Assembly: GCF_000165425.1 (NCBI RefSeq)
Contig: NW_001799042.1
Coordinates: forward strand, 62,001 to 126,000
Source of the DNA: Paramecium tetraurelia
Lineage: Eukaryota; Ciliophora; Oligohymenophorea; Peniculida; Parameciidae
Direction of reading: 5' to 3'
Length of the DNA stretch: 64,000 nt
Numbering within the stretch: position 1 is the stretch's first letter; each line of letters begins with the position of its first letter. The notes under the pieces were generated by a model. That model saw only the letters and a program-made list of their open reading frames with translations, had not been told where the DNA came from and searched no databases. Shown one piece after another: positions 13,329 to 50,288 of this stretch. The position numbers and the translations under genes were made by a program.

Positions 13329-14970
13329 ATGGGTGTTTGTTAAACCAAAGTTAAGAAAACCACAGAAAATCCAAAAAAAAAGCTTAATAATAAAATTGAA
13401 AGAGTCTAAACTGAATTTACTGCTACTTAAGAAACAGGATCAAAAAATCCAGGACTTTTGTAATTAAATAGCTATAACGTAATCAACTCACCTTAATCCT
13501 CTGGATATGTGATACCAAGAAACCAATAAACTAAAACAGGATAAGTAAAGTTAAGTGGATTCACATAAAACACTCCGCAAACAGGACAAATCAGCATCCT
13601 TGAGATGAACGCTTCTAAAAAATATTCCATAATTAAGAAACGTTATTTGGACGATGTAATAAATATATTGAATTATTTTTAGTAGAAAAGTATATTGTCC
13701 AATAATAAGACTGGAATAATAGTTGAAATGGAAACCTATTTAAAAGAAGATAAAGAGTCATCAGAATACGTACTATGGATATCGAAAGCCTAATTGGTAT
13801 AGATAACTCATTAATAACATAGGATCATCCTAATCTCAATCGTATCCTTGAAATATACCAAGATTAAAATTCTTATCAGGTCATTTATGAATTTTTTGAT
13901 GGGAAATCATTGTCAGAACTAGTATCTGAAGACAATCGACTTCCCGTAGTTTAAATTAATCAGATTATGACCTAAATAATCTCTATTGTATCTTACTTAC
14001 ATTCTCTAAATCTCGTTCATGGAAATCTGACTCTTGACTCATTCTAATTTAAAAGAAATCAAAATGAAATCTCAATCAAATTAATTGATCTAAAAAGAGT
14101 TAAAATCAAAGAACCAGAATCTCTAAATCTGTTAAATTTCACATCTCCAGAATGCTTGGCTCATTTCACTAATTACACAACTGCAAGGGATGTTTGGGCT
14201 ATTGGTGTTATATGCTATTCTCTTGCCTAAGGTCATTTGCCGTATACAATACCTCCAAATACTGATTAAATTTCAGCCATTCAACTAATCAAATAAACTG
14301 AGATTCATTTTTAAGATAATGATCAGCCAATTGCTCAGTTTATTCAGAAAATGTTAGTCCATAACCTAAAAAACAGAGCCACCTTGAACTAATTGAAATA
14401 GGATGAATTCTTAAAGCAGAATAATCAGAAATAACTTCTTTCACAAGAAATCCTATTAAAAAATACATAATTCGCAAAGCCTTGTTGTTTCCTATAAGAA
14501 ATTATACTAGGCTATTTTTTGTAAGAATTCAACTGGGAACAATATCTTTAAATCCAAAAACTATTTTCAGAAGGAGATTCAGACATGGATGGCTATTTAA
14601 GTAAATAGGAATTATCAAATCTGTATAAACAGTATCTCAATGTGACAAATCCAGAAGAATTGGTAGAGTAAGTATTTTAAAACTATGGTATTAATAAAGA
14701 AGAAGGAGTTAGTATCTAATAGTTCTAGTGTCTAACTGCTAGTAGAGATATACTATTAACCGATAGCAATATTGAAATAGGATTCTAGATCTTCTCAAAT
14801 GGCAGAAAGGAAATCAATCTCAGAGGATTAAAAAAACACTTAAATTCTGATTCCGAACAATTGGTTGATGAATTCAATCGTATGACGAATGAAGAAAAAA
14901 TTGTATAAATTTTATCTTATTTTAGTTGAATCTCAAGTAATTTCACAAGTTAATTCAATTGATTATTTGA
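13329..14970 (+). CDS. CDPK-like pseudokinase 1 (MGVC), with EF-hand
   Basis: 521 residues with introns at 13656-13682, 13797-13822 and 14903-14925. The start MGVC suggests N-myristoylation plus palmitoylation. A Gln/Ser/Lys-rich leader follows, then a kinase fold. The beta3 region reads TGIIVEMETYL, with no VAIK lysine. The catalytic loop is HGNLTLDSF in place of HRDLKPEN. The DFG position is DLK. ARDVWAIGVICY keeps the F-helix Asp. The EF-hand region has one canonical loop (DSDMDGYLSKQE) and degenerate ones after it. Known: CDPKs are kinase-plus-EF-hand proteins. Inferred: this one cannot phosphorylate and acts as a calcium-sensing scaffold or allosteric partner at a membrane. The 13797 intron lies at the same position and phase in all five paralogues here. 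Confidence 0.85.
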
Positions 14971-15812
14971 CATATTAATTAATCATATTAAGTTATTAAA
15001 TAAATTTATTTTCTATTAAATGATGCAAGCTATTCATTATTACATTAAAATTGAAAATTTCATAATTCATCCATTTAGGATTACCTTCACTCAAAATTTA
15101 TAAGTGAATGTATATTTTAGATATTTTTTTAAGTTTAAAATTATAAATTTATTGAGTTGAGGATTAAATTGCAAAGGATAATTATATAGATTATAACCAA
15201 ATTTTCAAATGTAGAAGGAATATTGAGAAAAGATAAAATAGTATGGAGCATCGATTGCATTGAAAGGAAATACTTATGAATTCTACTAATAATTAAATCT
15301 ATGAAAAAATTGAGGGTTTTAGTTTAAAATCTTTAATTTAAATTTGAAAACAAAAGATTAAGCAATTAAAAGGTTTTTCTAATTTCTTGAATATAAATTC
15401 AATTCTCAGGACTAATTTAGAATAATTCCTAAATTTACGCTTTTTAGCTGGACATTAATCAAAATCAAGAGTAAATAAGAAATATCACATCCATTTAGTG
15501 GTGCAATCTTTTTGTAGTCAGAATAATAATTTAAACACTCTAAATGGGTTAAATAATTTAAATTCTAATCCTTCCTTACTGAAGACAAATTCAGTATTTA
15601 TTTTTATCCAAATGAGTAGCTGCTCACTAAAATGTTGATTTTTCTAATAGTTTAACATAAAATTAATTCAATCTTATCTAAAATAGAAATCAATTAATAC
15701 TATTTTTCATAATAGTTTACCCTCTATTTGATTATCTTGACAATATTTTCATTTATATAATAAGTCCTCTTAAAACTAATTATAATTGAGATTATTTATT
15801 ATAAAAAAATTA
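14971..15812 (+). other. Intergenic with uncertain open frames
   Basis: 842 bases before SMU1. Two plus-strand frames stay free of TGA for long stretches (roughly 15,376-15,935, and 15,150-15,640 with two TGAs in the same frame). They give protein-like text, but neither has a convincing start, intron structure or family. One runs on inside SMU1 in another frame, which argues for chance. A decayed gene is possible. No gene is called. Confidence 0.25.
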
Positions 15813-17289
15813 ATGGAAATAAATAGAAACGATGTGATAAAGTTGATTTTATAATTTTTACAGGAGAATGGATTCAAAAAATCGCAAGAGGAATTGCAAA
15901 AAGAAAGTGGAATCTGTTTAAATTTGGTTGATTCGAAATAAAATCTTAAGAAAGACATCATAGATGGTAATGAATTATTTGAATCATTTAGGAAAATGGG
16001 ACTAAGTGCTGAATTAGATTAAGTTGTTCAATTTTACGGGTGATACATTATTAGATCTTTACGAATTGATAGTCTAAGAGTTAGTGGAAGTAAATGAGAC
16101 ACAATCAGCGCATTAATTTTTTCTTCAAATGATTGTTCCAAGTCTGCAGGAATACAAAGAGAGACTCCTAAAATTGGATTACTTAATAAGAAAACCTGGT
16201 AAATTGAGTATGAATGAGATTTACAATGATAATTTGAGTAAGGAATAAAGAAGAAGCAAGGTGGCTGATAGAGTGATTAGTGAATGCATAGAGGCTCCGG
16301 CTTGTAGATTGTTGGAATTGATTGGTGATAGTTTAAGACATTTAAATGCGAATAAAATAATCACGAATAACAAATATGACTTATTTATGGGTTTAGGATA
16401 GTCAGAGCAAAAAGTGACTCAAATTAGTAGAATAGAGAAGGTAATTAAATATTCAGAGAAGATGAGAGTTAATTGTGCGACATTTACTCCTGATGGACAA
16501 AACCTTATTACAGGATCTATAGATGGAATTATTGAGGTTTGGGATCCCACTAAATACTCAGTCAGAAATGATATAGAATATTAAGTGAACGATCAATATA
16601 TGATGCATAATAATTGCATAATTAATTTAAGTGCTAATAATGAATTGCTAGTTAGTTTGGATAATAATGGATAAGTAAAAGTTTGGAAATTGAAGACTGG
16701 TAAGTGTCTAAAGATAATTGAAAGTACACATCCTAAATAAATTGCAAGTGTGTTATTAGGTAAGGATCCTTAATAGATCTTCATTGCATCTGATTACATC
16801 TAATTATTCGCACTTAAGAGTGGAATCACTTAGAAATAGTATAGGGGACATAGTGGATTGATTTAATCAATGTTCTAGAGTTCAGAAGGTTCCAGAATAT
16901 ACAGTGGTGCTTTGGATCAATATTTTAAAGTGTGGGATACTCATTCTGGAGAATAGATTTACAGTCTGAAATTAGAGACAGCATTGGAGAAGATATTTTA
17001 CATTCAAGGATCTGTTCTGTTATGCCCAAGAGGAAAATAAATGGTTTTATTGAATAGCAATTTCTAAGAGGTTAAGAGATATCATTCTGAATCTGAATTG
17101 ATTAGTTGCGTGGCTTAAGGTGATTTTGCTTATGGTTTAGGATAGGGGTAATTATATAGTTATGAGGTTAAATCAGGAATTGGGTTGAAACTACTTAAAT
17201 TGCCAAGTGAGAATATGCAAGATATATGCATAGGACAGAATGTAATATTTTGCTATTCACAGAATGGTCATCTAATATTTATACAATGA
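15813..17289 (+). CDS. SMU1: Splicing factor SMU1-like WD40 protein
   Basis: 483 residues with one 25-nt intron at 15967-15991. The N-terminus carries LisH and CTLH modules matching SMU1: NDVIKLILQFLQENGFKKS, then KWDQVLNQIKL and DLYELIVQELVE. A SMU1-type linker follows (CRLLELIGDSLRHLN). After that come WD40 repeats, including NCATFTPDGQNLITGSIDGI, VKVWKLKTGKCL and SGALDQYFKVWDTHSGE. Known: SMU1 with RED acts in spliceosome activation at the B complex. That fits an organism with thousands of tiny introns, though this link is general. The later WD repeats diverge from the animal protein. Confidence 0.9.
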
Positions 17290-17318
17290 GTTAAAATTAA
17301 AATATTTGTTAATTAAAT

Positions 17319-17604
17319 ATGTCAACCAATCGAAACAATAGTTCAAGTCCTAGAGACTAATTGAGAGTATCTTCATTATCTTAAGAAAAGGAAGACACAC
17401 TTGAAAGCATTTGAGGATGATTATAATTAAACATGAATTGTCTTAAATTTTATAATTTTGGATAGATAATAATAGGGTATTACAGAAAATGGTGTAAATC
17501 CTGGAAATTTGGTCTACTTTGTTGAATCAAACGATAATTGGATTAGAGTGTTACAAATAGATTCATAAATAATGGAGGAATCATAGTTGTAATTTGTGTC
17601 TTGA
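17319..17604 (+). CDS. Probable small protein, exon structure unresolved
   Basis: An ATG at 17319 opens MSTNRNNSSSPRDQLRVSS. The region ends with a well-formed stretch (GVNPGNLVYFVESNDNWIRV), stopping at TGA 17602-17604. The two parts are in different frames. No single donor/acceptor pair joins them convincingly. Either two introns are involved or the true start lies elsewhere. The protein-like C-terminal part is the main support. No family was recognised. Confidence 0.35.
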
Positions 17605-17997
17605 CTTATTTGTTTAATGTTTAGTTTAAGGGGTTTTTAAATTAATTTATTGATTTTTTACTATGAATATTTTATCAAATTTTATATATAAACTATTAAA
17701 CTTAAAATAACATATTGATTACAATTATGAGAGATTAAGTTGTGATCCTGTACAATTATATATGGAATTGAGATTAAATAATGAATGAGGTATTTCTATT
17801 TTGGTGCACTGAAATGTGAAAAGGGTTGTCAGTTAAACTATAACTTAAATAGAGAAAGTAGCTTTGTAAAGAACTATTTTTGGTTATTGTATTGATTATA
17901 GGTTTAGTATTAAAAGAAACAAATATTCAGTTTTATCAAATAAATTTTTTACTATATTAGTGTTGTTTTCGATATCAATCTATAATTAATTATAAAA
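17605..17997. other. Intergenic, nothing recognised
   Basis: About 390 AT-rich bases upstream of pseudokinase 2. No coding or RNA signal was seen. Confidence 0.5.
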
Positions 17998-19579
17998 ATG
18001 GGGCCTTGTTAATCTTAATCTAAATTGAAATCAAGAAAAGATTTGCAACAACCAACATTAATCAGAAAAACCGATCAAGTACTCACAAATAACAACCCTT
18101 CACTAAATCTTCCAAGCTTTTCCCCTAACCAAGAGGTTAATAGCGAGCCTTATGACGACACTAAAAAAAACTTGTCCCAACTAAAAGTGTATAGGTTTTC
18201 ATACAAGCAGTTTTACAGTGAAATCACTTAAGGAAACATGAGATGTAAGTTTTTGTGTTTATATAATAAAGTGTAGTTGAATTAGAAGTTGGTTCAGCAT
18301 AATCTAACAGGTAAAATCAGAGTAGTTGAACAATACGAAAGAAATTAATAAAATGAAGAGTTCATCAGCCAATTGAAGAGATATCCCCTGGTATTACATA
18401 AACCTTATCGTTCTATAGGACAACCCTCGGATCGTAACTGTGCACGAATTGTTCATCGTTGAGGAATACTACCATCTGATTGTCGATTATTGCAGCGGAG
18501 GACAACTCTCCAATTACTACGTTGACAAATCCATCATCCCATTCACTGAAGCTGAAATAGCCTCGATCATCTATCAAGCTGCAGAATCTCTTCGATATTT
18601 GGAACAGATTGGATTGACACATGGCTTCCTGGATTTAAATAGTTTCTCCAGAGTCGATATGTCACATCATTTTCAAATCAAACTTAGCGACATAAGGGGT
18701 CTATTTGTAAAGCCGAACTTGAATAGACATAATGTTTTCAGTCTTCCACCTGAAGCCTGCATTAAAAAAGACTAAAGTGAATTCGATCACCAGAGAGATC
18801 TTTGGAGTTTGGGAGTGATGGCATATTAGATGATATGTGGATATCCTCCCTTTGAAGGAAATACAATTGAATCAGTGAAATCGTAAATTAAAAAGATGGC
18901 TGCCCAATATAACAATTTTCAATTCGATAGAGTATCCAAATTATGTAGACAACTGATTCAAAGAGTGTTGGTGCCTGCTAAATAGAGAATATCGCTGTAA
19001 GCCTTTATGAATGATCAATGGTTCAAGATCAGAACCAAGTAAAATGATCAAAATCTTTTAACGAAACTTTAGTAAAATAAGGTCAAAGTTTCAGAACTCT
19101 AACAGTTGTTTTTGATATTCATAATTAAGAACATTTGCTCAGCTGATTAACAATAACTCTATACGGAATTTGCCAATTTGGATGAAAATCAAGATGGACA
19201 ATTAACCAAAGATGAGATTCTCAGAGTGTATTCGAATCGGTTTGATTCAAAGGCAGATGCGAAGTTGTTCATTGAAAACATTTTCAAAATAGCTGATGTC
19301 GATAAAAGTGGTACAATAGATTTCGGAGAATTTCTGGTAGCCATTACTGATAAATCTGGATTACTGACTGAAGAAAATCTTAAAACAACATTTAAGATGG
19401 TTGCATCAAGCAATGGTAAATTGACCACATAAAAACTCAGATTTCATTTCAACACTTCAGTCTCCAAATTAGATAAATTGTTTTTAGAAAACTTTAATAA
19501 TCCATAAGTAATTTATAAATATAAAAATTAGAATGTTGGGTATTCGGAATTTGAAGCACTGATGAAATAGTTATTGTGA
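17998..19579 (+). CDS. CDPK-like pseudokinase 2 (MGPC), two EF-hands
   Basis: About 500-517 residues. Introns: 18391-18418 (family-conserved position), 19508-19531, and a possible 27-nt in-frame one at 18245-18271. It starts MGPC (lipidation signal). The beta3 region is LTGKIRVVEQYER, without lysine. The catalytic loop is HGFLDLNSF instead of HRDLKPEN. The DFG position is DIR. The activation segment is very short before LPPEA. RDLWSLGVMAYQM is retained. Two canonical EF-hand loops lie near 19,180-19,350: DENQDGQLTKDE and DVDKSGTIDFGE. Inferred: calcium-binding, catalytically inactive, membrane-tethered. It has the best-preserved EF-hands of the five together with pseudokinase 3. Confidence 0.88.
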
Positions 19580-23664: not shown

Positions 23665-25459
23665 ATGAGATTTCTAATAGTAAATGGATTCAATGCTTCT
23701 ACATCTTGTGCTAAAGTGTTTGACTATTTTAGGAATAACATTTAGAATGTATATAATTATATTTAGTTTTAGATGATATCAAAATAACGAGAAGTAGCAG
23801 ATACAGAGTGTGAGTATCATTTTCGAGATCGCCATTCTTTAGATGATTTTCTGTATGAGCCCGAGACAAGTTTAATCAGAATGGAATATGGGTTGAAATT
23901 TAATTCTATTGATATTGTCTTCATTATAGCTTCCCCAAATTCAAGACCTTGGAATCCAAATATGAGGAAGGTATAAATACTATATGAATAAGATAATCAC
24001 TTTGATTAGAATGTGTTTGAAGACCAAGAAGCTATTATTCTGTACTTCATTTGGTGCACAGGCTATAGCTTACCTTTGTTCAACAAATTTTTCAGTTGTA
24101 ACTAGTTTATTTTTGACCCAAGCATGCTTCCATTACTAACAATCATGGGGAAGGTTGCAAATTGGTGGATTTTCCAAAATATACACTGTAAGCATTGAAA
24201 AATGGCCCTAATGAATACTTCTTGGATTCCACCACTGGCGATCTTTACTTTTACTGTAAAATAACTGATGAGTGGTTACCGAAAGCCAACATAGGATTGC
24301 ACAATAGAAGAGATGCCATGGAGTATCAGTCGATTGGCAAATACATTGTCAAATCACCGACCTATAAACCTAAATAGAACATGTTGGAAAATCAAAGTGA
24401 AATGATGTGTTTAATCAAAAAATAATTTTTGCATCACTGGTTATTTAGAGGAGTTGCCATGGAGTTTGGCATCACCTCTTATAATTAATGGGATATCCAT
24501 GCAATCACGTTTACCAACCCAGACAAAGTAGTTATTGAGGTTATTTAGAAATTCAACTCGTTGGCAGAGCATAATTTAAGAGGACCCTTAATCATTGAGA
24601 GTGACAATATAATAGCAACGATGTTCGAGTTGGAACCCAAATAGAAGGATACTGTAAAAATATTGCAGAATTTTATTGACAATGCTGTGAAAATGATTAG
24701 ATTCAACAACAATTATAACCTTATTAGCATCACCAATGAGAAGTACTTTTCAGGAAATAAGGGATTAGACAATATTGAGTTAGTGTTTTAATAGAAAAAG
24801 AAGGTGGGCAATTTGAATCCTGAAGATTTGTTAAAAAGATAATAGAAGAATTTTATGCATGAATATAGGAAATTACTGAACACAGCCATCTAAGAAACAG
24901 AAAGAGATAAGATATTTCATGTTGGATTCTCGGTCAAAAAGGATAGATTACCAGAGTATTACCTTATTAATATAGTTTTGTATAGCAAAATAATATCCAG
25001 GAGAAGAATTATAAAGTGGTGAGACGAAAATCATTTCAAATGAAAAAGGCTCACTTCTTAAGGCAACAGAGTTAGATTAATGTGGGAGGAGATGATGATG
25101 AGTAGATGAGGGATTTGTTAGAGGAGGCTCCCAGAAAGCCTTTGCCATTCCAACGTGTCGTAACGACTGCCAACAACAGTAAACGGATAACCTCAAAAAA
25201 AAATTCAAATCCTAAGACACCAAATACTATTGAAAATTAAGACAATGAATTCCAAGAGTTTGAAATCAAGATGATCAATAATGGGTCTGTTAGAAAAATG
25301 CTACATCCTTCACTAGATGAAGAATTCTTAGGATCAAATAAGATATGGGTTCCAGGATTCCTTTCGAAGGATAAAAGCAAGAACAATCACATCATTCACA
25401 GTCAGAGAGGCTAACACAATCAGAATAACAGATTTCACACTGATTCACTTGTCGGTTGA
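23665..25459 (+). CDS. Protein with glutamine-amidotransferase-like N-terminus
   Basis: 573 residues with introns 23971-23992 (AAG acceptor), one of 25 nt near 24098-24122 (AAG acceptor), and one of 26 nt near 24976-25001 (GTT donor). The first 200 residues resemble a class I glutamine amidotransferase fold. A first strand MRFLIVNGFNAS leads to a nucleophile-elbow-like LLFCTSFGAQAIAYL and a later NNHGEGC. In that family the elbow is GxCxGxQ. Here the nucleophile position appears to be Ser (TSFGAQ), so activity is doubtful. The rest (about 370 residues) is unrecognised, ending in a basic, Asn-rich tail. It could be a ciliate-specific protein that reuses the fold for binding. Confidence 0.6.
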
Positions 25460-25496
25460 TAAGAATAATTATTCAAATATAAATTATTTTATTTTT

Positions 25497-27425
<1,929 letters not shown>

Positions 27426-27584: not shown

Positions 27585-29230
27585 TCAGAGGGCATCAAAC
27601 ATCAATTGTTAAAATTAATTGAAATTTATCTAATAATTATAAATTATTATTACTTAATTATTTTCATAAACAGAAAATTGCTATTTCAACTATTGTTTTT
27701 TGTTGTGGTATAATGTACAAATTTTCGATAATGAAATGAAGCCTTCCACATCTGATAGTATTTTAAATGTCTCTTTAAGATTGTCTTCAGTAATTAATGT
27801 CTCTTTATTTATAACTCCAATCAAAAACTCTTAGAAATCAATTTCCCCATTTTTATTGATATCAATCCCTTTAAATACAGCATCTACATGTTCCTTAACT
27901 TCTTGGATACTACTGAAATGTTTGATGTAAGCGATTGTTAGATCTTGCTTACTGATCTTGCCATCATGATTAACATCGAATTGCCCAAAAAGTTGATAAA
28001 GGATCTATTCTTAATCGGCTGAAAAAGTGGATATCATAAATTACAAGAAGCAACACTAAAGAAAACTCAATTAATGATTATTTTCTAATTGCTTAACTAT
28101 TAACTTCTATTCTTCATACTGAGTCTCTATATTGTGTTTTAGCCAATGATCATTTAAAACTTAATTCAAATTAATTCTTTTGGCAGGATCAAATTTGAAG
28201 AATCTTTTGATGATATCTACAGATTCAGGTGGCAAACATTGTGAATTTAAATCTTCTTGCACCGAATAATTCATAATCTCCTCAAATACTTCCTCTTTAT
28301 TATTGCCTTTAAAAGGGAATTCCCCAGTCAGCATTTAGTAGAATATTACTCCTATGCTCCACACATCCCTTGCAGGAGTATAATCTTCAGGAAATTTGAT
28401 AGCCTCAGGGGACATATATAGAAAGATATCTTTTTCAGAAATATATGATTTTAAGTAAATAGGTTTAAAATCGACTAATTTAATAAAATTAGAGTTTGAT
28501 TGATTACATTTCTAAAAAGAAGCCAGTGTTAATCCCCCATGATTGACTTCGTATTAATGAAGATGCTTGACAATTTCAATCATCTGTTTCAGAATCAATG
28601 CTGCTTACTATTGAGTGTAAACACATTTATGTAGGTGTTGGGACAAAAGAGGTCCATTGCAGAAATCATGAATTATTTGATAATTATTACTATCCTAGAA
28701 GATTTCGAAAATTCTTGTTAAATTAGGATGGTACTAAAAATATATCATATATTTTGTACCAATTAAGTTTTGACTATTGACTCAATGAGCTAAATTCCTT
28801 GGTCTGTTTTTTTAATCATCTCAGCCACCATTATTCTACCACTGAGATTATGTTAGACTACTACAATGTGATCTAACTATTTAATTCGATAACAAAATTG
28901 GTCTTTGCTTAGCATAGTGTAATGTTTTGAGAATTGGGCATTCTTAATCGATACCCAAGTTTTGAGGGTTCCACGAAACCCTGCATTTTCGACTATTTAA
29001 TCTGCCCATACCATATGCTTTACTTAACGAGTAGAAGGAGTTGCAGCAAACTTAGACAATACTTACTTTGGTGAGGAAGCAGTTGGCTTTATGCTTTTGA
29101 TGCTTCTTTCAGACCTAACCTATCTTTGAATATCAAGAGAGTAATCATTTTGAAGAGTCTATTTTGTTTGTTGTTCCCCATGTTCTTTAATTTGAACATT
29201 CTTTTGTCGTTTAGCTGAACAGATTCCCAT
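27585..29230 (-). CDS. CDPK-like pseudokinase 3 (MGIC), two EF-hands
   Basis: 531 residues with introns 28734-28759 (family-conserved) and a 24-nt one near the 3' end (second conserved position). It starts MGICSAKRQ. The beta3 region LSGRIMVAEMIKK lacks the expected lysine. The catalytic loop is HGGLTLASF. The DFG position is DFK, the closest of the family to the active motif. MSPEA and ARDVWSIGVIFYQMLTGE are well preserved. Two canonical EF-hand loops: DVNHDGKISKQD and DINKNGEIDFQE. Inferred: an inactive kinase fold with working calcium-binding lobes. It is the only family member on the minus strand here, about 8 kb from pseudokinase 2. Confidence 0.88.
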
Positions 29231-29576: not shown

Positions 29577-32500
29577 ATGAACGTAGAAGAGTTAAAGGAA
29601 GCTATTAAAAGAATTGGGCAGTGTTAATAAGAGTAAGCTGAATACACTAATAATAGGTCTTAATATGAGTTGGATATTGTGTGGCAGCAAATCCAGCACC
29701 CTGTTGGATTCGATTTATTGTTTCAATGTGCAAAGAACGTAATCGAATTCAGACAATACACACTGTTTTGGAAAGTAAGTACCATCTTATTATGAATAGT
29801 CTGCGAATAAAATCTTGATGCACATAGTGAAGTTGTGTTTAAATAATCAGGATTAATTGAAAGCCTGGGAGACACTGCGTCTAACCATAGATCCAGATAA
29901 ACATTTTTACAAATGCCATGAGTTAGTATAGATGGATGAGGATCAGGTATTAGAATCCAAAAGATTTTTAGTTTTCGCACTAGGAATTCTCTTAATAGGA
30001 GTTTTGTGCTAATCTATAGGAAGGATAAGATGTGGATGCATTATATGAGGATGAAAAGGGCAATGTGATAGGATGGTGTAGGGCAAATATCGTGAAGATT
30101 AATGAGAAATATGTGTGGGTTAAGTGGCATGAAAATGATGAAAAGAGAAAGATTGCTCGATATTCAATGGATTTGGCGCCGTATAAAAGTCAAGTGACAG
30201 ATGAAGAGTGGCAATGGAGACATTCCCTTAATGCTGGCGATATAATAGATTGTTTCGATAATCGTGTATGGTAGAATGCTACAATTGTTACTGCTTTGAA
30301 TGAAGAAGATAAGGAGTATGTCGTTGGATTTAGAGTGTATGATGAGAAGGGCAATTAGTATGACTCATAAAGCAGGAGATTCTTTGGTTGGAATCAATAA
30401 TATGACGAAAGAATCAAGGCAGTGAGTCCAAGAATTCAGAAAAGAAATGTATTTTCAAGAGGACAGCCCTCTAATCCTCATTGTCAAGAGGAAAATATCC
30501 ATGATTGCAATGATTTCCTCTATCCAAACACGGATTATGCAGTGCCTCGATTTTAGACCAAATAGGCTAGGAGATCAATTGTTATTTGCGAAATGATCAA
30601 TGAATTCGGACGTGCTGGGTTATTTTAACACATCTTAGATTAGATTCTCAATAAATGCACCATTGATTTCTTACATAGTTATATGGTAGTGTTGAATAAT
30701 TTCCATGAAATGTTACATAGAGAATTTGTTTCGGCATACGTTCCCTAATTGTTTGAAGCAGTCCAAAATAATATTTTGTTATCAGCTGATAACAATCTTA
30801 GAAACTTTTCATCCTAAAAGATAACTGATATTTTACAAGCATTGAACAATTTATTGAAAAGAGTGTATGCATTGCAAAAAAGATAGGAAATGATAGATAG
30901 ATTGGATTTGGATATAGCGTATAAGTGTTTTACCAGTGACTTTTTAGAGAGAAAGATTTAAGGTTTGAAGGCTATTTAGGAGGTGATAAAGAAGTCAAAG
31001 GATCAATATAATCAATACGGAATGTAGGAATGGTAGAAACAAGCAACTACTTAAATGATATTGGAATGGTTGAATGAGAAGAAGATCTTTGAGAGTCTGT
31101 ATGTTGGGTCTGGAAATTCGCATTTAGTATAGAGAAGTGCAGAATTCTTTAAGTTTTTAATAGAGGAAAAAATGATCAGTATTAATAATTTCAAGGACAT
31201 ATGGAATAGTTTGGATAAGGCTGAATATGAACATAAGTTAGCTATCTTTAAGTTATTCAAAGACGTTTCAAATTCGTTAGAGAAGGAGTGGTTAGATTTC
31301 TTGACTGATGCTGTGTGCACTAAGGATCCTAAGGATGTCACTAAGGATGATTTAGAGTTGCTGCTGGATATAATAAAGATGAATTTTAGATATAAAGATG
31401 AATATATCTAGAAGTGTTGCAATTACTATTGGACAATGTTGAAGAGCGGATAATTGAACTAGACAATGTAGGAATAATACATATCATATTACATTGATTA
31501 AGTCACTTAATATGAAATGAGACCACACAAAGGAGCTTAGATTAGTATGATTGGGGAAAGTATTGTGAATGGAGAATAAGTGAATGTAGGTTTGAGAGTG
31601 TTGATCAAATTGATAGAGAAACTGGATATCTAGCCAGCAGCTTGGGAATAATACACTAGAAATGTGGCTTTGACAGACTTGGAAAGTAAATTCAAAATAG
31701 TGGAGGAGATAATCAAATCTATTCCTGAATTGAAGAAGTAGAAGGATTATTTGGAGGAAATCAAGGTTAGAATGCAATTCATCTAATTCTTCTATCAGAA
31801 CATAAATACTTATGAATACAGATTAACTTTCAAGATAATTTCAAGCATATGGGAATAATTGGTTTGTTAATCATCAAATCAACAGGAGAAGGATCTTGTG
31901 TATAAGTGGTTTAGTGCCTTATCGACTTAGGATGGTCAATCTCAATTAACATCGATGGTGGCTATTTAAGATCTCAAGGCCTTCTTCAATGAGAAGATGA
32001 CAAATGACCTAATTCAGTTGACTGAAGAAGGATTTAATTGTTTTAAGACAGTAATGACAGCAATAAATAAATAAGATGATAACAGTTTTGGTCTTGATGT
32101 ATTGTGGCAAATGATTTTGGAAACTGAAAATGAAAAGGTCTCATAATCTGCAATAGATTATTATCTTTAATTTGAAAGCACATTAGATGTGTTATTCAAT
32201 AAATTACAAGAGAATAGAAACAATGATCAGAAATTACACAGATGTTTGCTGGTATTGGAAGGATTCATAGATCAAAGTGAGGTCAATGGAGTAGGCAATT
32301 TGAAGAGTTTAAATGCTTTATCACAAGGAGAAGAATTGTAAATTTAGGTTTCATATGAACATGGAAATTAAAAGAAGTTTACTATTAAAATTAATGATAA
32401 CCAAACTATTATTGAGTTGAGATTGGCAATAAGCAAAGTCATTAAATAATAATGGGATTCCATTGGATTGAATAGTTTGAAAGGAGAAATTAAGTTTACA

Positions 32501-35500
32501 GAAAATGGAAAAATGATCAAAGATTTAAGATTAAAAAAGGGAGAAATCATAATGGTTTTCAGAAAGTAAGTTAAAGAAATACAAGAGGCTAGTCTCTTAG
32601 ATGGAGATGTGTTATCAGAGGGTGCAAAATAAGTATTTGGAGAGATCTTTAGTGAATATTCTACTGATGGTAAAATGAGTAAGGAAGATTGCACTCGATT
32701 TGTTACTGGATGTACAGGCAATCCTTGTAGTATTGATGATGCCAATATCCAAAGAACATTCGAATAATATGATAAAGACAAAGATTCCATTCTGACTTTG
32801 AGTGATTTCTTCGACTTTTACACTGATTCTGCAAGGACCAAGAAATCAACAGTCTGGCTCAATCTCCAAACCTTACATTACAGAAATGATCTAATCAGAG
32901 GAGATAGAGTACCCCTACCCTAAGTCAATGCTTAGTTATTGCCCAGAGGATAGATTGTGTAGAATCAAAGATATTTGGATTTGCTCTTTGAACTTTTACA
33001 GAATTCTAGTATTGAAGTTTAAGAGAAGACTTGGTATTTATTGAGGAGGTTGCCTCCCTCCCCTTAATTGATTAAATAGATGCTCACCTTTGAGAACATC
33101 TAATAACCAACTGATTGGGATCAGATCTTAGTTAGCAGTCATTACAGATTACTTTACAGTCTATATATCATTGAGTTTCTGATGAATCAACATGACTCGA
33201 ATAATTTGTAAGCATTGATAGATGATCAAGAGATTTTGGTGTTAAAGGATAAATGGATGAGCAAGTTTTTACAACTTGGAGGATTTGATAAATTATTGCA
33301 ATTCTTTAAATAATATTAAGGTAGAAGTGTGAGTACATTGCCTCAAATCGAAAAAGAAATCTTGTCATTTCTTTTAAAAACATTCCAAAATTATGTTATT
33401 GCTGCTTGTGCCTCTAATGTACCTAATTTGTACAAGGCATCAAGGGGTATTCAAATCATCAAACCTTTGGATCAAGTGTTACTCGATATTAGATAATCTG
33501 AGGATCCTGAGGAGTTTAAATTACTGGTGCAAAAATTGAAAGAGAGTCGTCTTGGTGATAGTATAACTGAGAAGATCGAGAAATTCATTGGTGTTTTAAT
33601 CAACTTGATTTAAGAATTGCTTAAGAGTAATGAATTAGAATAGGAAGATAGATAGATTATTGAACATAGTGTTATAGTAATAATCGTAATCTTATTGCAT
33701 AATTAAGAATTACTTACAAGTAGCATAGAAAATGTCGAGTTCATTAATATTTTCTTCAGTGGAATCTTTACTGATAAATCTGATACTGTACGTAACTTAT
33801 TTAGTAGAGCAATACTAGTGCTTTGTCATGAAAGTCAGAAACGAAACAATCAACCTACCAAAATTATATTATAACAATTGATTTCCATGTAAAATCAATA
33901 AGCCAATTCATCCTAATATTATGAATTATTAAGTCAATTGATCGACAGTGCCTTTGAGAGTGAAGACTCTTAATAATTCATTGATTATCAACAATTGGCA
34001 TAATAAGTGATTGATGGTTTGGTTAATCATAAAAGTGTAGAGACAAGATAAAAGTCAACGGTTGTTGATAAGGTCCTTGTTGGTCTATTGAACCTATTGA
34101 CCAAATTGTACAAATTCATTAAGTAGCCAATCCATGAAATCATATTTAACGATTGCTTGTTTAGTCTTTAAGAGGAGAAGGAGGTGAAATGCAAATCGAG
34201 TGAAAGTAGATAAGCTGCATTCAAATTGCTTTACTAATTATCTTATCAGTAGAATAATTGCGAGAACATTCTTTTAAATATGTAATAGTTGAGTTAGAAG
34301 ATCCCAGTTATCAATAGGTGGAATTACATACCTTCAAGCGATATGAGAAGTTCCTTTGGCTACTGCGGAATAAGAAACCTTAGATGCATTTGCTATATGA
34401 ATGCCATGCTTCAACAGTTTTATATGACCATTCCTTTTAGATATGGTATCCTATAAGCTGATGACGGCAAAGAACCTGATCTTTAATAAAGCAAGACAGG
34501 ATTTTAGTTTGACGACAATGTTCTTCATCAATTACAATAAATGTTTAGTTATCTTGAGTTATCTGATCGAGTTGATTATAATCCCTAGGAGTTTTGTGCA
34601 GCATTCAAAGATTATGCAGGAGAACCAGTCAACATTTTCATTCAATAGGATGCTCAGGAATTTTTGAATATGATTTTTGATAAGCTGGAGAATCTCCTTA
34701 AGAATACAATCTATAAGAATATTTTAGATGGAGTTTTTGGAGGCAAAACCTGTACCTAAATTGAATGTCAGAATTGTAAGGCAATAAAGAACAAGGATGA
34801 GATATTTTATAATTTGTCTGTTCCTATTAAGAATCTCAAAAATCTATAAGAATGTTTCGATAAGTTCGTGTAAGGTGAAATCATCTCAGATTTTAAATGC
34901 GAGAGTTGCAATTAAAAGGTTGAAGTCAGTAAGAGATAATTGTTAGCTTAATTACCAAATGTTTTGATATTACATTTATAAAGAATTGTATTCAATTTGG
35001 ATACATTCATGAATGAAAAAATTAACTCTCGTCTAGAATTCCCAATTAATTTGGATTTAGCATAGTATACTATAAATTAAGATTAATGTACCTAATATAA
35101 GTTGGTTGGCATAGTAGTTCATTTGGGAACTGCTGACGTAGGACATTATTTTAGTTATATTGATATCAAAACTCAAAATTAATGGTTAGAATTCAATGAT
35201 CATAAAATTAAGGAATTCAAATTAAAATAAATGGAGAATGAATGCTTTGGTGGTCAATCTAATTTAGAATACAACGATAATGATGTTTGGGGGAACGGTT
35301 TTAGAGAGAACTCTTAAAATGCTTATATGCTGATTTATGAAAAGGTTGAAAAGGACAAAATTCAATTAGAATTCAACTCTTAAGAGGAATTACAGTTATC
35401 ATTGTCCAAATTTGAGAATTACACTATTCAACCAAATAATGTACTATTAGTAGATTATAATTCATTCCAACCGCATATTCCTAGTCAATATCATAAGAAG

Positions 35501-37603
35501 GTGAACAGTGATAATCAATAGTTTTTATTAGAAAGGAATCTTTTCAATCAAGAATTCATGAAATTCATATTGGAGATAAGTAACTTTGCGAATAGTGATA
35601 ATGCAACTGTGATAATAGAAATTCTCATTCGATTTAACTATGATTTATTGGCTCGTGCCTATGATAATTCTATTTCAGAACAATTTAACACAAAGATCTT
35701 GCAACTGATTCAGTAATATCCCAATAGCAACTATCTAGATTTGATATACTTTGGAAAACAAGCCAAAGTATTAGATCTCTTGCTGGTTTGCCCAGAATCT
35801 AGAACTCGTAAATACTTCGGGAAATTGTTAGCAACTTTATTCAATCAAGCAATTCAAATTCAAGGGGAAATCACAGAAAAGATTTCTGAGGGATTAGATC
35901 AATTATTCCTTATGATATAAGATCAAGTACCTAAGAATTGGACACGCTTTGATTAATATTTCTAATTTTGGCTAGACTTCATTCAGGAAGGTAAAGTCTA
36001 GATTTCATATTGTTTGAAGAAAGAAATGATTTTGTACATGATTGATTTCATTCTGGATAAGAGCAGTCCCTTGTAGTTATATGAAAAGAAGACTCAAATG
36101 GGAAATGCCTACTTTCCAATCAATTGTTAAATCCCTATGCAAATTATAAGCACTCTACTTTAATAAAATCATAAACTCACTCTCCAAGAGAAGAAATTGC
36201 TTTATTCACCTAAATTTTATGACAAGGCTCTTAAAAGTACAAAAATTGAAGAACTAACTCCAATCATACTTAAATTTGCTTATAACAATCGATATTTTTC
36301 AGAAATAATATCAGGATGTATTATGAGAGGTCTTGGAAATGGGGATATTGATGAGTTCAAAAACTATCTCTAAATGGCCAAACCATTCTTGTTAATCAAA
36401 GACAATCTATAAATTGAACGTTTGGAATGGCTAGTAGGAATCCCCTCATCGAAATAGAAGGACTCAACTAAGGTTTATGATAGTCAACTTACAGAGTATC
36501 CACAATTTGGACTTTTTGGATTGACCAGTTTAGAAGAAGATTACTGGACATTTGCTAGTCCTTTGGGATGGTAAAATAGTCTCTTTGATAATTTCTGTTC
36601 TCACAGGACCATTAAGAATTTGGATAATCAATGTTTGTTAATCCTTAAACTACTATTAATGATTAGTCTCGAATGTGAGACCTGTTATGATTATGTCTCC
36701 AAACTGCCTTGTGTTAATTATCAATATGTAATTATTCGTTTTCATTTTAATAGAAATAAATGGAGGAAATCTTCAGAGCATTCATTGAAACCTACATCAT
36801 AGATACAAAACGATTCTATTCCCCATTTCCTCGAAAACAAGAAACCGAGGAGGTGAAGGGCTACTTGGATTAATATTTTACCAAAGTGTCACAGATTCAT
36901 AATGAATTCTAACCTCAATTTGATTATATCATTGGAAAGACAGTAGAGATGAATAAAGTTAGAAAAACCTATTTCCTGTACAATCCTAACACAAAGGAAG
37001 AAACATAGATAGATGAAGGATCTGAGGGTTTCCCAGAAATCAAACAGTAGATCGAAGAAGGTAATTTGCAAAAGGTACTTACAATGGAAGTAATTAATAC
37101 GTTAATAATTCATATAGGAAAAGATATATAAAACAAATGTGTGCGATAATCTACCTAATGGAACTACCAATGAGTCCTTACCTTAATAATACGTTAAAGG
37201 AACCTAAATTCTTACTTATTCTGTGGATCCCAATTGTTAAGCTGCCAACTTCCTCTAATCCAATGCCTGGAGTGCTGAGAGTGACGAAAAAGCCACAGTA
37301 AGTAATCCAAGAATTGCTGATACGGTTAAATAGATTTAGATTCAGAATCACACAAATAGAAATTTACATGTGATCTTAGAAATCAAAGGTGAACCTAATC
37401 CTTGCCATTACATTCCCAAATCCAAAATACAATCACTTATGAGCTCTAAGAGTTCGACTACAATGTTCACAGCCATTAAAAACAACTGTAATTAGGAATT
37501 CCCACCACTTTAATTGACATTAGTGTATAAAAAATAAGAGCCGAGACAAGACTCTTACCTATATTTATCGTCTTAAGAAGAAATGAATTTGGAATTATTA
37601 TGA
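29577..37603 (+). CDS. Giant ubiquitin-specific protease, USP9X/USP24-like
   Basis: 2,639 residues with four introns: 25 nt near 29777, 29971-29998, 26 nt near 36729, and 28 nt near 37093. With these the frame closes exactly. In order: an N-terminal Tudor/agenet-like pair (KGNVIGWCRANIVKINEKYV), long helical repeats, a ubiquitin-like domain near 32,340-32,570, an EF-hand-like pair (YDKDKDSILTLSDF), more helices, then the USP catalytic domain. Its Cys box is GIRNLRCICYMNAMLQQF, with Cys codon at 34391-34393. The zinc-ribbon Cys pairs are ECQNCK and CESCNQK. The His box is GHYFSYI near 35,141. ECFGGQ and a C-terminal helical region follow. Known: this class removes ubiquitin from many substrates. 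The usual Gly before the catalytic box is Arg here. Confidence 0.9.
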
Positions 37604-37753: not shown

Positions 37754-37868
37754 GGGGGGGTCTTTCGACCTCTAAAAATTTATGTAAGTCACCGGTATGA
37801 GCCCAACCCACGGTAATCTTTAGTAAAAGGCGAAAAATTAGCACGTTATAGGGTGAGCTCGGTGATGA
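37754..37868 (-). ncRNA. U5 spliceosomal snRNA
   Basis: The minus strand carries the invariant U5 loop I (GCCTTTTACTAA, complement of 37820-37831) inside the longer context CGCCTTTTACTAAAGATTAC, which matches U5 from animals and yeast. It is closed by a stem: CACCGAGC and CACCC on the 5' side pair with GGGTTGGGCTC and CGGTG on the 3' side. Downstream is an Sm-type site AAATTTTTAGA (37771-37781), then a perfect terminal hairpin GGTCGAAAGACC. Order and spacing are exactly those of U5. Ends are approximate. Known role: aligns exons in the spliceosome. The segment also stands out as GC-richer than its surroundings. Confidence 0.92.
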
Positions 37869-44123: not shown

Positions 44124-44340
44124 ATGTATCAATACATGAACAATTCATAATTATAACAAATTAAATAATAAAATTAATAATTATAATAAATATTAATACT
44201 GATAAATTCAAAATTAGATAATAATATCATTTTAATAATACTATACTATTAATAAGCAAGTAATCAACATCTTCTTTTTGATATGATATTACATTTACAC
44301 TAAATAATCAGCATTATTTGATATTATTTATTTCACCTAC

Positions 44341-44694
44341 ATGTTATAGCATGAACCCCATACCCATGAGTTACTACTAAGATGTGTTTTTTTGAGAAAT
44401 GCTCTCTCATGCGTTTATAATCTTCTGAGAACCTCTCAAAAAAATCTTAAATTGATTCAGGATATTATTGGATCACTTCCTCATAAGGTTCATTCAATAA
44501 TGGATATTATTCAAAGATGTGCATATAAATTGAAGAATGTTTATAATAATGAAGATCTGACAATTTATCTTTATCAAACCAGTCCTATCTAAAAAATTCT
44601 CCTAATTCTTTTGCTATATATCATTTACACACATCTCAAATATGGTTATGTAACTAAAACCATATTCTCGATTGATTGCTTATTAATTTTATGA
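44341..44694 (+). CDS. Possible small membrane protein
   Basis: A 117-codon open frame, of which 66 codons lack even TAA/TAG. A helical middle (LIQDIIGSLPHKVHSIMDII) is followed by a hydrophobic segment (ILLILLLYIIYTHL). No family was recognised. It stands alone in an AT-rich gap of 1.2 kb, so chance is possible. Confidence 0.35.
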
Positions 44695-45338
44695 AGATTT
44701 TTACTAATTTCAAAATCTTCCTTATATATTTCCCTGTCTTTTTTGCCTAGGTTTATCCATTTAAAGATAAATGGGGATCAAATTTAAAAACAATTCTTTA
44801 CTTTTTAGCATTTGTGCTATCATCTGCCCTTTCACCATGTCAATTATTATTTTTATAAATTTAATTATATATACGCTAAATTTTTAATGAAAATATAACA
44901 ATAATATTGATAATAATTATGTGTTTTTAACTTCAATCATTTCTTTTAAGAGATATCCAATAAAATAAATTGTATAATTATTATTAATTATCATATAAAA
45001 CTATGATAAACTATCATCCACTATAAATTCTTCAAATTCTTCTACAGATTGTTGGTAATAATATTTAACTTTAAATTAATATTAATTATTTTAACATCTG
45101 AATAGGCATGAATACAAATCATAATGAAGTATTGTTTAAAATATTTTCTATTGTAGTTTTGAACTTATTATTATAATATATAAATAGAATTAGAAATGGA
45201 ATAAATAACTTTGTTTTTATTATAATCTAAATATTTTCTTATTTCATTAGGTATATTTGATTGATTGTGATTCTTAAGGACAAGGCATAATTCCATTTAA
45301 TAAATAACTATTATATTTAAATAAGACTAATCATTCCG
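44695..45338. other. Intergenic, nothing recognised
   Basis: About 640 very AT-rich bases with many ATAAT runs. No coding or RNA signal was seen. Confidence 0.5.
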
Positions 45339-45824
45339 TCAATTTCTTTTGATAATTGTATCAAATTGCTTTTATATTTCTTTTTCTAATTCCGGTGTAT
45401 ATTCAACATTGATATTGCATTTTTTCAAGAACTCCTATGTTGTGCAGCCTACAAATTCGCAAGCAAAGGATGCTAACATTAGATTAGATAGATGTTCTAA
45501 GCCCAAGTCATCTGCAAGTTTTAATATGGTTTGTCTTTCAATTGGAGTAATTGATTTTAAGAAATTGCATTCTATCTCATTCAAATAGGTCTCTATTTTC
45601 CCATTGGGCACAGGCTTTGGGATGATTGAAATCTCAGAAGTTAACAATTTTTGTAGAAAATCGACGACTTTGATAACAATAACACTTTCCACTTTAAAAT
45701 TGAAAATTGTTTTATTTCTAGAGTTTTCTAGGAAAATAAATTTAGATTTTTTTACCTTGAATTTGGGAATTAGTTTTACTAAACTTCTATAAAATTGGAA
45801 CTGGAATGTTAACTTATTTATCAT
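45339..45824 (-). CDS. Divergent Skp1-family protein
   Basis: 161 residues with no intron needed. The C-terminal half follows Skp1: VVDFLQKLLTSEIS, an acidic LNEIECNFLKS, LKLADDLGLEHLSNLMLASF, and the end CTTQEFLKKCNINVEYTPEL, which matches the Skp1 tail (EEIRKTFNIENDFTPEEE). The N-terminal BTB-like strands are poorly conserved and basic. Known: Skp1 links F-box proteins to cullin-1 E3 ligases. Inferred: a diverged paralogue whose F-box or cullin contacts may differ. Confidence 0.75.
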
Positions 45825-46012
45825 CTAAAGTATTGATGATCATTTTGACAAAATAATTTAATATAATAATTATAATTATAATTAAACCAAGCTTATCTTG
45901 GTGAAACACCATGGACAGTAAGACTTTGTTATACTAACCAATCGTATGAAGAGTATTTTGATATCATTCTATTATAATCTAATATGCTATCAATAAATTA
46001 TTAAAATCAAGA
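45825..46012. other. Divergent intergenic region
   Basis: About 190 bases between the ATG of the Skp1-like gene and the ATG of pseudokinase 4. Nothing coding was seen. Confidence 0.45.
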
Positions 46013-47570
46013 ATGGGGTCTTGTACTTAGAAACTGAAAAAGGCTAACTAAGAAAATCTCCAAAGAAAGCATATGCAAAAAACTTTGTAGGTTTAGCATT
46101 CAAAAAATCAATCAATCCAAACTCAAGAATCTGTTCAAGAGAAAAAAAAGAAGGATAAGTTTTTGTAAACTGATTAATCTCTTAACATCCATAATTTCAT
46201 TCTGATTTAAACATGTAAATTGTCTAAAGTCTATTCCATTGTTTCCAACAACATTAAGGATAATTAAGTTTAAACCCAAAATAAGTCATACATTGAAAAT
46301 ATGCAGATCATATAGAATAATCTGACTGGGAGAATTAGAGTAATGGAGACACTAAAATTGGACGAGAAATAAACTAAACAATACATGGATAATATTATAG
46401 CAAATCCTTTAGTATTTTTAATATAAAGAATATTAGTCACATCCTAACATCGCACAAACACATGAGATGTATTAGGACGATGAAACTATCCATATAATTC
46501 ATGACTATTGCAGTGGAGGACGATTAAGTACCCTATTTGTAAAACTGGGCCAGGGGATAAGTGAGCATATAGCTTTGAAGATATTGGTATAGATGATAGA
46601 ATCCTTGAATTACCTTCACATGAAAGGATTCAATCATGGTCATTTGACACAAAATAGTTTTTCAAGAACAGATGAATCAGAGAACTATTTTATTAAACTC
46701 ACTGATATAAAACCAATTTACTTAAAGCCTTAGGTTACGTTTGAGCAATTATAGTTTTTTGCTCCTGAAGTAATTGATAACGATTAGGATTATTCAATTG
46801 CTAGAGATGTTTGGTCAATAGGCATCATATTTTATAAGCTTCTAACTGGAAATCTTCCTTATTCATCAACTTAATCGAGTAAATTGAAATAAGAAATACG
46901 AAAGGGTATTCTCTAATTTAGTGATTTATAATTTGATAAAGTGTCCACCAGGGCTAAGGAATTATTAAGTAAACTACTCTCCTTTAATCCATCAATAAGA
47001 TCTGATCTTAATTAAATCATCAAATCACCAATGTATAGAAAATTAGTATCTCAAACTAAACAAATTAGCCAATAATCTGTAAATGCCTTGACGAATATTA
47101 AACCAGCCAATGTTATATAATCATTGTTCTTATAATTTTTGGTTAGTTAATTTTGCCAAAACTAATAAAATGAAATTTATTAAATGTTTAATAAATACGA
47201 TCAAAATGGAGATGCTAAATTAAATAGGACTGAAATATGTGAACTTTTATATTAGTAACTTAGATCTAAAGAGTAAGCACAAAAACATGTTGATTTGATA
47301 TTTTAAGCAATCGATACAGATCATAATGGTACCATTGATTGTGATGAATTCATTAGATGCATTGTAGACAGACAGGCATTGATCACTACTCCTAATCTTA
47401 AGGCGATATTCAAAATATTGTCTAATGGCAAAGGATCAATTCACAAAAAACGATTTATGCAATGTTTCTAGGTTGATTAAAAATAAACTGATGAGATGTT
47501 TGCTTCCATCACCAAATCAAAGAGAATCACTTTCAAAGTATTTTCCAAAACCATGATGGAACTTGTATGA
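46013..47570 (+). CDS. CDPK-like pseudokinase 4 (MGSC), EF-hands
   Basis: 510 residues with one intron at 46412-46436, at the family-conserved position. The second conserved intron is absent here. It starts MGSCTQKLKKANQ. The beta3 region LTGRIRVMETLKL has Met where the lysine should be. The catalytic loop is HGHLTQNSF. The DFG position is DIK. FFAPEV and IARDVWSIGIIFYKLLTG are kept. EF-hands: a slightly altered loop DQNGDAKLNRTE, and a canonical DTDHNGTIDCDE. Inferred: a calcium-responsive, lipid-anchored pseudokinase. It is the nearest neighbour of pseudokinase 5, with one membrane-protein gene between. Confidence 0.88.
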
Positions 47571-47616
47571 GTGATATAAGTATTTCATACTAATTTTGAT
47601 ATATTATTTTATTTAT

Positions 47617-48273
47617 ATGGAAGAACCTTTAATTTAGAATGAGGAAATTGAATCAAAAATTCCAAATGAAAAAGTCATGACAAGACTCATCAAAGGCGAG
47701 TTTAGGTTTGAGAGAAGACAGTACATATTTTTAAACGTTAATACTGTGAATTTAGTAAGAGAATGCAGTAAGTAATTAGGTGTTAACTATTTATAACCTG
47801 ATTGGTCCTATCAATATTGAAGCCCAGAAATCTTTAATCTTTTATGAGGATACTAGAGTACCTTTAAATGATCAGGACTTCACTTTGATGAATTTATTAA
47901 ATGCCTTGATTGTAGTTCATCTCTTGAGAATCTTCACTTGTTTATTGGGTTTCTTCAGTGTTTCATAGGTAATCGAATGTATTGAATGGTGTAGAAATCC
48001 GGTAAAATTATGACTTATTTTATGATTATGTCTACAGTGTGTGTGCTTTGTAGAGGAATCATATCCTTATTGATTGTGCTAAATTATACAGCAATAAAAG
48101 ATACTTGTAATTTGATTTTTGGAGGTGGAACTGATGACATCGGTTCATTAATGGCAATGTAATTTTTAGTTGTACTTATACTTTTTGTAATTGCAGAAAT
48201 ATTGCTTGCTTTGATCTCATTAATATAATGTTCAAAAACTAAGGAGGAATATAGAAGTACAACTAATCTATGA
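47617..48273 (+). CDS. Four-TM protein of unknown function
   Basis: 201 residues with introns 47755-47779 and 47969-47994. The cytoplasmic N-terminus is short (MEEPLIQNEEIESKIPNEKV). Four hydrophobic helices follow: near residues 76-100 (LNALIVVHLLRIFTCLLGFF), 105-125, 150-175 (FLVVLILFVIAEILLALISL), plus a weaker one near residue 50. A hydrophilic tail KTKEEYRSTTNL ends it. No family was recognised. It starts 46 bases after pseudokinase 4 stops. Confidence 0.75.
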
Positions 48274-48752
48274 TATCTTAGTTTGGATTAAGCATAAGGA
48301 GAAAATGATGAAGAATTATGAATTGTGCTATGAAGTCGCCATTTGTTAATTAGATGAATGATTATTAAATATCTGTAACATTCAATTTCACATATTATAA
48401 ATTTATATAGATTTTAATCATTTAAATCCATAAAATGACATTTGATTTGCATTCGTATTTACTATTTCTTAAGGCATAGTAAGGGAATAACAGAAACATC
48501 ATGTACAGATTCTCACCAGTAGACATTTAAGTTTAAAACGATATTTTTGATTTCGTTATGTTTATGTAAGAGATTAGAATTAATTATAACCATAAGTTGA
48601 ATCATCATTAAATAAGCAAAAGTGGGTTGCATTTTACCAAGAAGTAAAATATTTTGCATTTGAGTTATTTTCTACAAATTACTACTTATGAAATAACGCA
48701 CAACATTTATTATCTGATAATAATTAAATAAACTCAATAATATATATTCGTT
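48274..48752 (+). other. Intergenic with an open frame in phase with pseudokinase 5
   Basis: From an ATG at 48434 a frame runs without TGA straight into the start of pseudokinase 5. Its first 50 codons read like protein (MTFDLHSYLLFLKAQQGNNR). It would add about 106 residues upstream of MGNC. Since all four paralogues begin at MGxC, the downstream start is preferred and this frame is probably chance or a separate small gene. Confidence 0.3.
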
Positions 48753-50288
48753 ATGGGTAATTGCAGCACCAAAAAGAAAGTCAAAAAAGATGTAGAAGTA
48801 CTTGTATCTACATAAGGACCCGAGGAAAAACCTAGAATTGATAGAAAATAATAAAAGTCTTACACATTTACTCCTATTCTTGCTAGATCACTTTTACCGG
48901 ACACAGTTAATGAGTCCGTTATTTCAATACGTTCCACCAAAAAATTTATTGATTCATCGAAATAACAAATCTAAATTCGAGCTGGACTCTTGAGAGTTTA
49001 TACCATATTAGGAGCCAAACCAGACTCTTATTTAGAAAAATTGGATGATAAACAAATAAGGATAGTCCAACACAATATAAGTGGAATTAAAAAGAGAGTA
49101 GAAACAATCAATAAATTTGATACTTCTACACAGAATTTTATTCTCAAAATCTAAAAAACCAGATTAGTATTTAAATATATAACATTAGTAAAATGATTAT
49201 ATCTGTCCAATAACTAATATTTATGAAGACTCTGATAAATACTACCTGTTATCCGACTATTGTAGTGGTGGCAGTTTAGCTGCATTAAAGGGAAAGTTAT
49301 AGGATAGTTAAGTGACTATCCTATTAAACTAGATGGTCACAGCCATTTCTTATTTGCATTCCAAAAAGATGGTTCATGGTAAGTTGTCTTTGGATAGTTT
49401 TCATTTATTAAGTGATTTAAATAGTTTATTTTGTAAGATGGTTGATGCAAACAGTTTATTTTATGGGAAAGAGTAGGTTAAGATAGAACCATCATTAGAA
49501 GATTACGCAGATGATGTCTATGCTTTAGGGACGATCGGTTATTAATTATTGACTGGTTTAATTCCTTATTAGATTAAAAACTATAAATAATAAGAAGATG
49601 GAGAAAATGAACTCATCTTATATTTTAGTGAAGGAACTTCAACTACTTTAAAATCAATACTGAAGAAAATGTTAGACAAGAATAGAAGTGAGAGAATTAC
49701 TTTGGAAGAAGTTAAAAGATAATTATCTAAAAATGATATGAGACATAAGTACTCGGATTTCTTAATAAAGCCTTTGTATTATTTATCAAAATGTAAACAA
49801 AGGAATTATTTTCACGTTGTAATTCTGGCTTTTATGCTGAACAAATTCAATTAGGAAGAAGAATGCATTTTATAGAAAATCTTCAATGATGCAGACCTTG
49901 ATTAAGATGGATTATTGATGAAAGACGACATCATTCGATTATATAAATCTATAGTTGAGTATGAGACTATAAATGTCGATATTCAACAATTATTTTAAAA
50001 ATTAGATGTAAAAAACAAAGAAGCATTAGATATAAAGGAGTTTATATCAGCAGCATTAAACCTCGATGAGTTATTGTCGTAAACATATTTAGAGGCCTGC
50101 TTTAAATATTTATAGAATCAAAGAGGGCAAATTACATGCAATAGTGTCAAAAAACATATTGAGATTAACGAATAATTGTTCAATTCGACTTTAGAGGACA
50201 TCAATGGGCAATTCAAGGTAATAAATCAATAGATATTTCTTAGGTAAATTATACTGAATTTACTGAGATAATGAGATAATTATAATGA
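48753..50288 (+). CDS. CDPK-like pseudokinase 5 (MGNC), most diverged
   Basis: 495 residues with introns 49167-49188 (conserved position) and 50218-50243 (second conserved position). It starts MGNCSTKKKVKKD, with a polybasic patch behind the lipidation signal. Beta3 is ISGIKKRVETINKF. The catalytic loop is HGKLSLDSF. The DFG position is DAN. The APE motif is lost, and the F-helix region is DDVYALGTIGYQLLTG. One canonical EF-hand (DLDQDGLLMKDD); the second is degenerate (LDVKNKEALDIKEF). Inferred: the member furthest from an active kinase. Its stop lies one base from that of the convergent MGCV gene. Confidence 0.85.

Follow-up and report, generated by a model that had tools for sequence, protein, structure and literature searches.

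The window analysed here, a 64,000-nucleotide stretch of the Paramecium tetraurelia genome whose own numbering is used throughout, carries five genes (PK1 to PK5) that encode proteins built like CDPKs. The residue patterns described below support the assignment of all five to one family of CDPK-derived pseudokinases. Because the CDPK shape was kept and the catalytic residues were replaced alike, these proteins are probably membrane-tethered, calcium-responsive adaptors; for the more precise reading that they act as non-catalytic, lipid-anchored pseudokinase adaptors or allosteric regulators under Ca2+ control, we estimate a probability of about 0.55.

Gene structure, domain architecture and relatives

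Under the standard genetic code, the window holds a single open frame of at least 150 aa. Under code 6, in which TAA and TAG encode Gln, long frames are packed throughout the 64 kb. The gene model of the window, where GC content is 24-35%, comprises about 26 genes, with 54 introns whose lengths run from 19 to 31 nt (mean 25.6) and whose ends are mostly GTA...TAG, a form which the model itself favours. Taken together with the GC content, these features suggest Paramecium. PK1 (13329-14970, forward strand; introns 13797-13822 and 14903-14925) ends beyond its second intron and encodes, as the other genes do under code 6, a spliced protein with an MGxC N-terminus, in this case 530 aa starting with MGVC. 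PK2 (17998-19579, forward; introns 18391-18418 and 19508-19531) encodes 509 aa starting with MGPC, and PK3, the only copy on the reverse strand (27585-29230; introns 28734-28759 and 27630-27653), encodes 531 aa starting with MGIC. PK4 (46013-47570, forward; intron 46412-46436) and PK5 (48753-50288, forward; introns 49167-49188 and 50218-50243) encode 510 aa starting with MGSC and 495 aa starting with MGNC, respectively. One intron position, directly after helix C (...L / xHPN...), is common to the five genes. An intron near the 3' end is present in all genes except PK4; those of PK1, PK2 and PK3 were set by hand so as to obtain an alignable C-terminus.

In Pfam searches, Pkinase scored above the cut-off in every protein (E values of 1e-17 to 2e-31), as did the EF-hand pair PF13499, and single EF-hand models matched PK2 to PK5 in addition; kinase and EF-hand were the only families found. 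The spliced models and the Pfam matches thus bear out the initial annotation, in which five genes with an MGxC start, a kinase fold and EF-hands had been described. In a profile search of the PDB, full-length apicomplexan CDPKs ranked first (E values of 1e-63 to 1e-49), with matches across both the kinase and EF-hand regions. TgCDPK1, TgCDPK3, CpCDPK1 and PfCDPK2 have the same kinase-junction-EF-hand order, can be aligned over nearly the whole length and share the conserved fold residues. Consistently, CDPK structures were the first matches to a model of PK3 exon 2, folded alone and of moderate confidence (pLDDT 71, pTM 0.60). By descent and architecture, with a CAMK/CDPK-type kinase that continues in the same chain into a junction and EF-hands, the five proteins are CDPKs.

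The family is known here from one species and one locus. Homologues were also sought in two collections without ciliates: the viral contigs gave no matches, and the genome contigs gave seven weak ones, six with ordinary HRDxKPxN loops and none with HGxLxxxSF, the loop motif of the five proteins. Likely pseudokinases have been noted in the kinome of Ichthyophthirius (PMC3341644). In the literature searched, which did not extend to the kinome study of P. tetraurelia (Bemm 2009), we found no CDPK-type pseudokinase family of this kind.

Several neighbours of the five genes are of separate interest. A short predicted gene adjoining PK5 (50562-50784, reverse), whose MGC-starting product of 66 aa reads MGCVQQKQSKRQ..., may have been modelled by chance or may encode a small protein with a lipid anchor. 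A gene of about 2640 aa (29577-37603, forward) encodes USP9X/USP24-like ARM repeats and a UCH peptidase domain, and directly downstream of this large ubiquitin-hydrolase gene lies a U5 spliceosomal RNA gene (37758-37866, reverse; Rfam RF00020, 79.5 bits). At one edge of the window, a gene that is open at this edge (55198-63999, reverse) encodes a very large protein of cysteine-rich repeats; towards its end this protein has apparent membrane segments, and by eye it resembles a polycystin or REJ-type surface protein. At the other, the product of the gene at 1-2351 (reverse) has an N-terminal segment like that of an ion channel and, after it, a domain that by eye resembles a nucleotide cyclase; the part of this product that was scanned had no Pfam match at 1e-5.

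Loss of catalytic residues and the HGxLxxxSF loop

Profile alignments to CDPK3 (3hzt) and to a CDPK1-type chain (4m97) located the position of the beta3 lysine, and an invariant Glu falls on it in PK1 to PK5. The absence of this lysine had been recognised initially, while its uniform replacement by Glu had been missed. A search of the first 200 residues of each protein for GxGxxG gave no match, and the alpha-C Glu position is occupied by L, S, E, D and L in PK1 to PK5, respectively. In the catalytic loop, HRD reads HGx with N, F, G, H or K at the position of the catalytic Asp, the Lys position holds T, D, T, T and S, and Asn is replaced by Ser in every copy; the alignment thus agrees with the earlier statement that the catalytic Asp, Lys and Asn are gone from all five. 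The DFG motif reads DLK, DIR, DFK, DIK and DAN, its Gly being replaced by Lys, Arg or Asn and its Asp kept, as had also been reported. The HRD His and the DFG Asp do not vary among the five, nor do the APE Glu, the alpha-F Asp and the alpha-I Arg. Most residues of this kind hold the kinase C-lobe together, the exception being the DFG Asp, which binds Mg2+. The overall pattern indicates that the catalytic residues and most of those handling the nucleotide were lost and the skeleton was kept.

Judged by the features of an active CDPK (Gly loop, beta3 Lys, alpha-C Glu, HRD Asp, loop Lys and Asn, and DFG), the five proteins fall short. Unlike the active enzymes, they carry Glu at beta3, HGxLxxxS instead of HRDLKPEN and a replaced DFG Gly, have no GxGxxG, and are partly canonical in the first EF pair only. 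Pseudokinases are defined as proteins that keep the kinase fold and miss at least one of the beta3 Lys, the HRD Asp and the DFG Asp (PMC3019232). All five proteins fit this sequence definition, with the first two residues missing and the third kept. Absence of activity cannot be proved from sequence, and some pseudokinases are weakly active, as in the case of JAK2 JH2 (PMC4718504). Such low activity, together with the invariant DFG Asp and a loop more conserved than any other stretch of the protein, would suit residual or non-canonical catalysis, in which the nucleotide is still bound and a group is transferred by an unusual route. Nevertheless, the alpha-C Glu is not conserved, and most of the side chains that bind ATP or metal (the beta3 Lys, the catalytic Asp, the Asn and GxGxxG) are missing together, so that we give this possibility little weight.

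A six-frame search of the window for HGxLxxxSF gave five matches, compared with a mean of 0.04 across 100 shuffled windows, and each lies in one of the five genes: HGNLTLDSF in PK1 (14018-14044, forward; residue 222), HGFLDLNSF in PK2 (18620-18646, forward; residue 199), HGGLTLASF in PK3 (28515-28541, reverse; residue 222), HGHLTQNSF in PK4 (46635-46661, forward; residue 200) and HGKLSLDSF in PK5 (49375-49401, forward; residue 201). These degenerate loops are exactly those first listed, and the invariance claimed for their His, Gly, Leu and Ser-Phe holds in all copies. No sixth copy of the family was found in the window by tblastn. Two other kinases of the window keep ordinary loops, HRDIKPEN (25937) and HRDLKPSN (52995). 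The former belongs to a gene at 23984-27425 (forward) that is CDKL-like by eye, with a model that probably fuses two genes, and the latter to a gene at 51598-53416 (reverse) that is MAPK15-like by eye; with their catalytic loops intact, both are useful controls for the five pseudokinases.

In the alignment of the five proteins, 37 of the 455 ungapped columns are invariant, and the catalytic loop, with five invariant columns in nine, is the densest nine-column stretch. The hypergeometric P for this site is 2.7e-4. However, a maximum of five invariant columns in any nine is reached by 5% of shuffles, so that the density of the loop alone is modest evidence, and the derived residues shared by the five sequences carry more weight. 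The loop of PfCDPK2 reads HRDLKPENF in the profile alignment and already has the H, L and F of HGxLxxxSF. Since these three are also found in active CDPKs, Gly and Ser are the only derived residues among those invariant in the loop. HGxLxxxSF had been proposed as a new signature, and the proposal stands for Gly and Ser; three of the five invariant residues are ancestral, inherited from HRDLKPENF, and His-Gly occurs already in human MLKL. Together with the Glu at beta3, the Gly and Ser of the loop make a simple marker for finding further members.

The loop of human MLKL (PDB 4MWI and others), HGKIRSSNF, resembles those of the five proteins in having His-Gly-x for HRD, a hydrophobic residue next and Phe last. 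This His-Gly likeness is convergent. MLKL belongs to a separate kinase lineage and combines a helical N-terminal domain with a pseudokinase, without EF-hands. The domain order of the five proteins, in which EF-hands are present, is therefore not of the MLKL type. MLKL also differs in keeping the beta3 Lys (PMC4718504) and the loop Asn, and in having GFE in place of DFG. It is a non-catalytic switch, and its HGK motif has been discussed in a review (PMC4718504). TYK2 was found among weak, non-significant matches to the loop segment of PK5 (E value of 0.23). Its JH2 domain probably has His-Gly at the place of HRD; JAK JH2 domains are of the tyrosine-kinase lineage, have their partner kinase in the same chain and carry no calcium module.

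Divergence and selection among the five copies

Identity among the five kinase domains is 23-37%, PK5 being the most diverged copy and having a shortened activation segment. Synonymous sites were saturated in pairwise dN/dS counting (pS of 0.65-0.81), and omega was therefore estimated with a codon model fitted on the tree. The one-ratio model gave an omega of 0.099 for the kinase region, 0.048 for the EF-hand region and 0.081 for all columns, values that are rough owing to the saturation of synonymous sites but clear in direction. An omega of 1 was rejected in each case, with 2*delta lnL of 203 (kinase), 122 (EF-hand) and 366 (all columns), the log-likelihood being lower by 101, 61 and 183 units, respectively. 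In addition, the five frames are free of TGA codons, of which each gene would have about 10 at neutral equilibrium.

The initial claim that selection rather than decay shaped the family withstood these estimates. The divergence among the copies and the shortened activation segment of PK5 might suggest decaying duplicates, that is, relaxed CDPK copies heading for loss, but the frames are open and free of stops, the short introns are intact at the shared position, omega is well under 1, and identical derived residues are retained in all five proteins. Decay of the five genes is unlikely from these features, and a course towards loss of relaxed copies deserves hardly any credence.

The shared intron position and the shared derived residues point to a common origin. 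With their CDPK domain order, an identity of about 30%, and frames that are open and constrained, the five genes are, on all these sequence characters, paralogues. Parsimony suggests that catalysis was lost once, in their common ancestor, and that duplication then produced the five copies over 37 kb.

The retention of CDPK descent, fold residues and domain order is also what one would expect of dominant-negative or substrate-decoy proteins, which would titrate the partners or substrates of active CDPKs instead of serving as Ca2+-gated scaffolds. Ciliates have large CDPK sets, with about 101 CDPK-class proteins in P. tetraurelia (PMC3019232), which adds to the appeal of the idea. Nevertheless, the activation segment and the loops diverge strongly among the five, so that no common decoy surface is evident, and we regard such a role as improbable.

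Calcium control, membrane attachment and a candidate function

PK1 has one canonical EF loop and PK2 has two. PK3 and PK4 have one each (EF2), accompanied by a loop with D at position 12 in PK3 and by one with A at position 6 in PK4, and the single loop of PK5 is near-canonical, with D in position 12. These loops all lie in the first EF pair, and the second pair is degenerate in every protein. Each protein has one or two loops that are canonical or nearly so and does not have the four functional EF-hands of a CDPK. PK1 and PK5, with their degenerate EF2, may be only weakly controlled by Ca2+.

The state of the second pair, the loss of EF2 in PK1 and PK5 and the non-standard residue that EF1 of PK3, PK4 and PK5 has at position 6 or 12 leave some room for pseudokinase scaffolds with largely vestigial EF-hands, which would be constitutive membrane adaptors with a minor part for calcium. 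However, PK2 has two fully canonical loops, PK3 and PK4 have a canonical EF2, Pfam recognises the EF-hands, and omega is low in this very region (0.048). We thus consider vestigial EF-hands unlikely, albeit the leading alternative to the calcium-gated reading, ahead of the decoy role.

The MGxC N-terminus is invariant in the five proteins, and we infer from it that Gly2 is myristoylated and that palmitate is added to Cys4. A known protein with some resemblance is Oms3 (O3Pc-MSP) of P. caudatum, a ciliary-membrane protein of 489 aa that combines a kinase-like domain with EF-hands (PMC10974281). This mating-type kinase was set aside as a direct match, since it is described as having residues that bind ATP, four EF-hands and seven introns, each 20-23 nt long (PMC10974281).

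The role of a calcium-gated, membrane-anchored adaptor would suit the anatomy of PK1 to PK5. Lipidation at Gly2 and Cys4 would hold the protein on a membrane, either ciliary or cortical, where the kinase fold would no longer transfer phosphate and probably would not bind Mg-ATP. Binding of Ca2+ to the remaining first EF pair could change how the junction/EF module is placed against the pseudokinase core, and this change would expose or hide a surface for a binding partner, which might be a membrane protein or an active CDPK. The divergent copies may supply different partners or Ca2+ sensitivities. If we speculate further, HGxLxxxSF and the beta3 Glu could mark a ciliate-wide, expanded family of Ca2+-sensing pseudokinases, in which the once catalytic cleft was rebuilt as a conserved site for a ligand or partner and Ca2+ signals at the membrane are decoded without phosphorylation; this broader proposal is rather unlikely.

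In ciliates, apicomplexans and plants, CDPKs are among the major decoders of calcium, and those of parasites are studied as drug targets. If the five proteins act without catalysis, the CDPK calcium switch would be reusable as a pure adaptor. As dead kinases are well established as regulators, PK1 to PK5 would extend that theme and overturn nothing; they are probably one lineage's version of it and not a category of their own.
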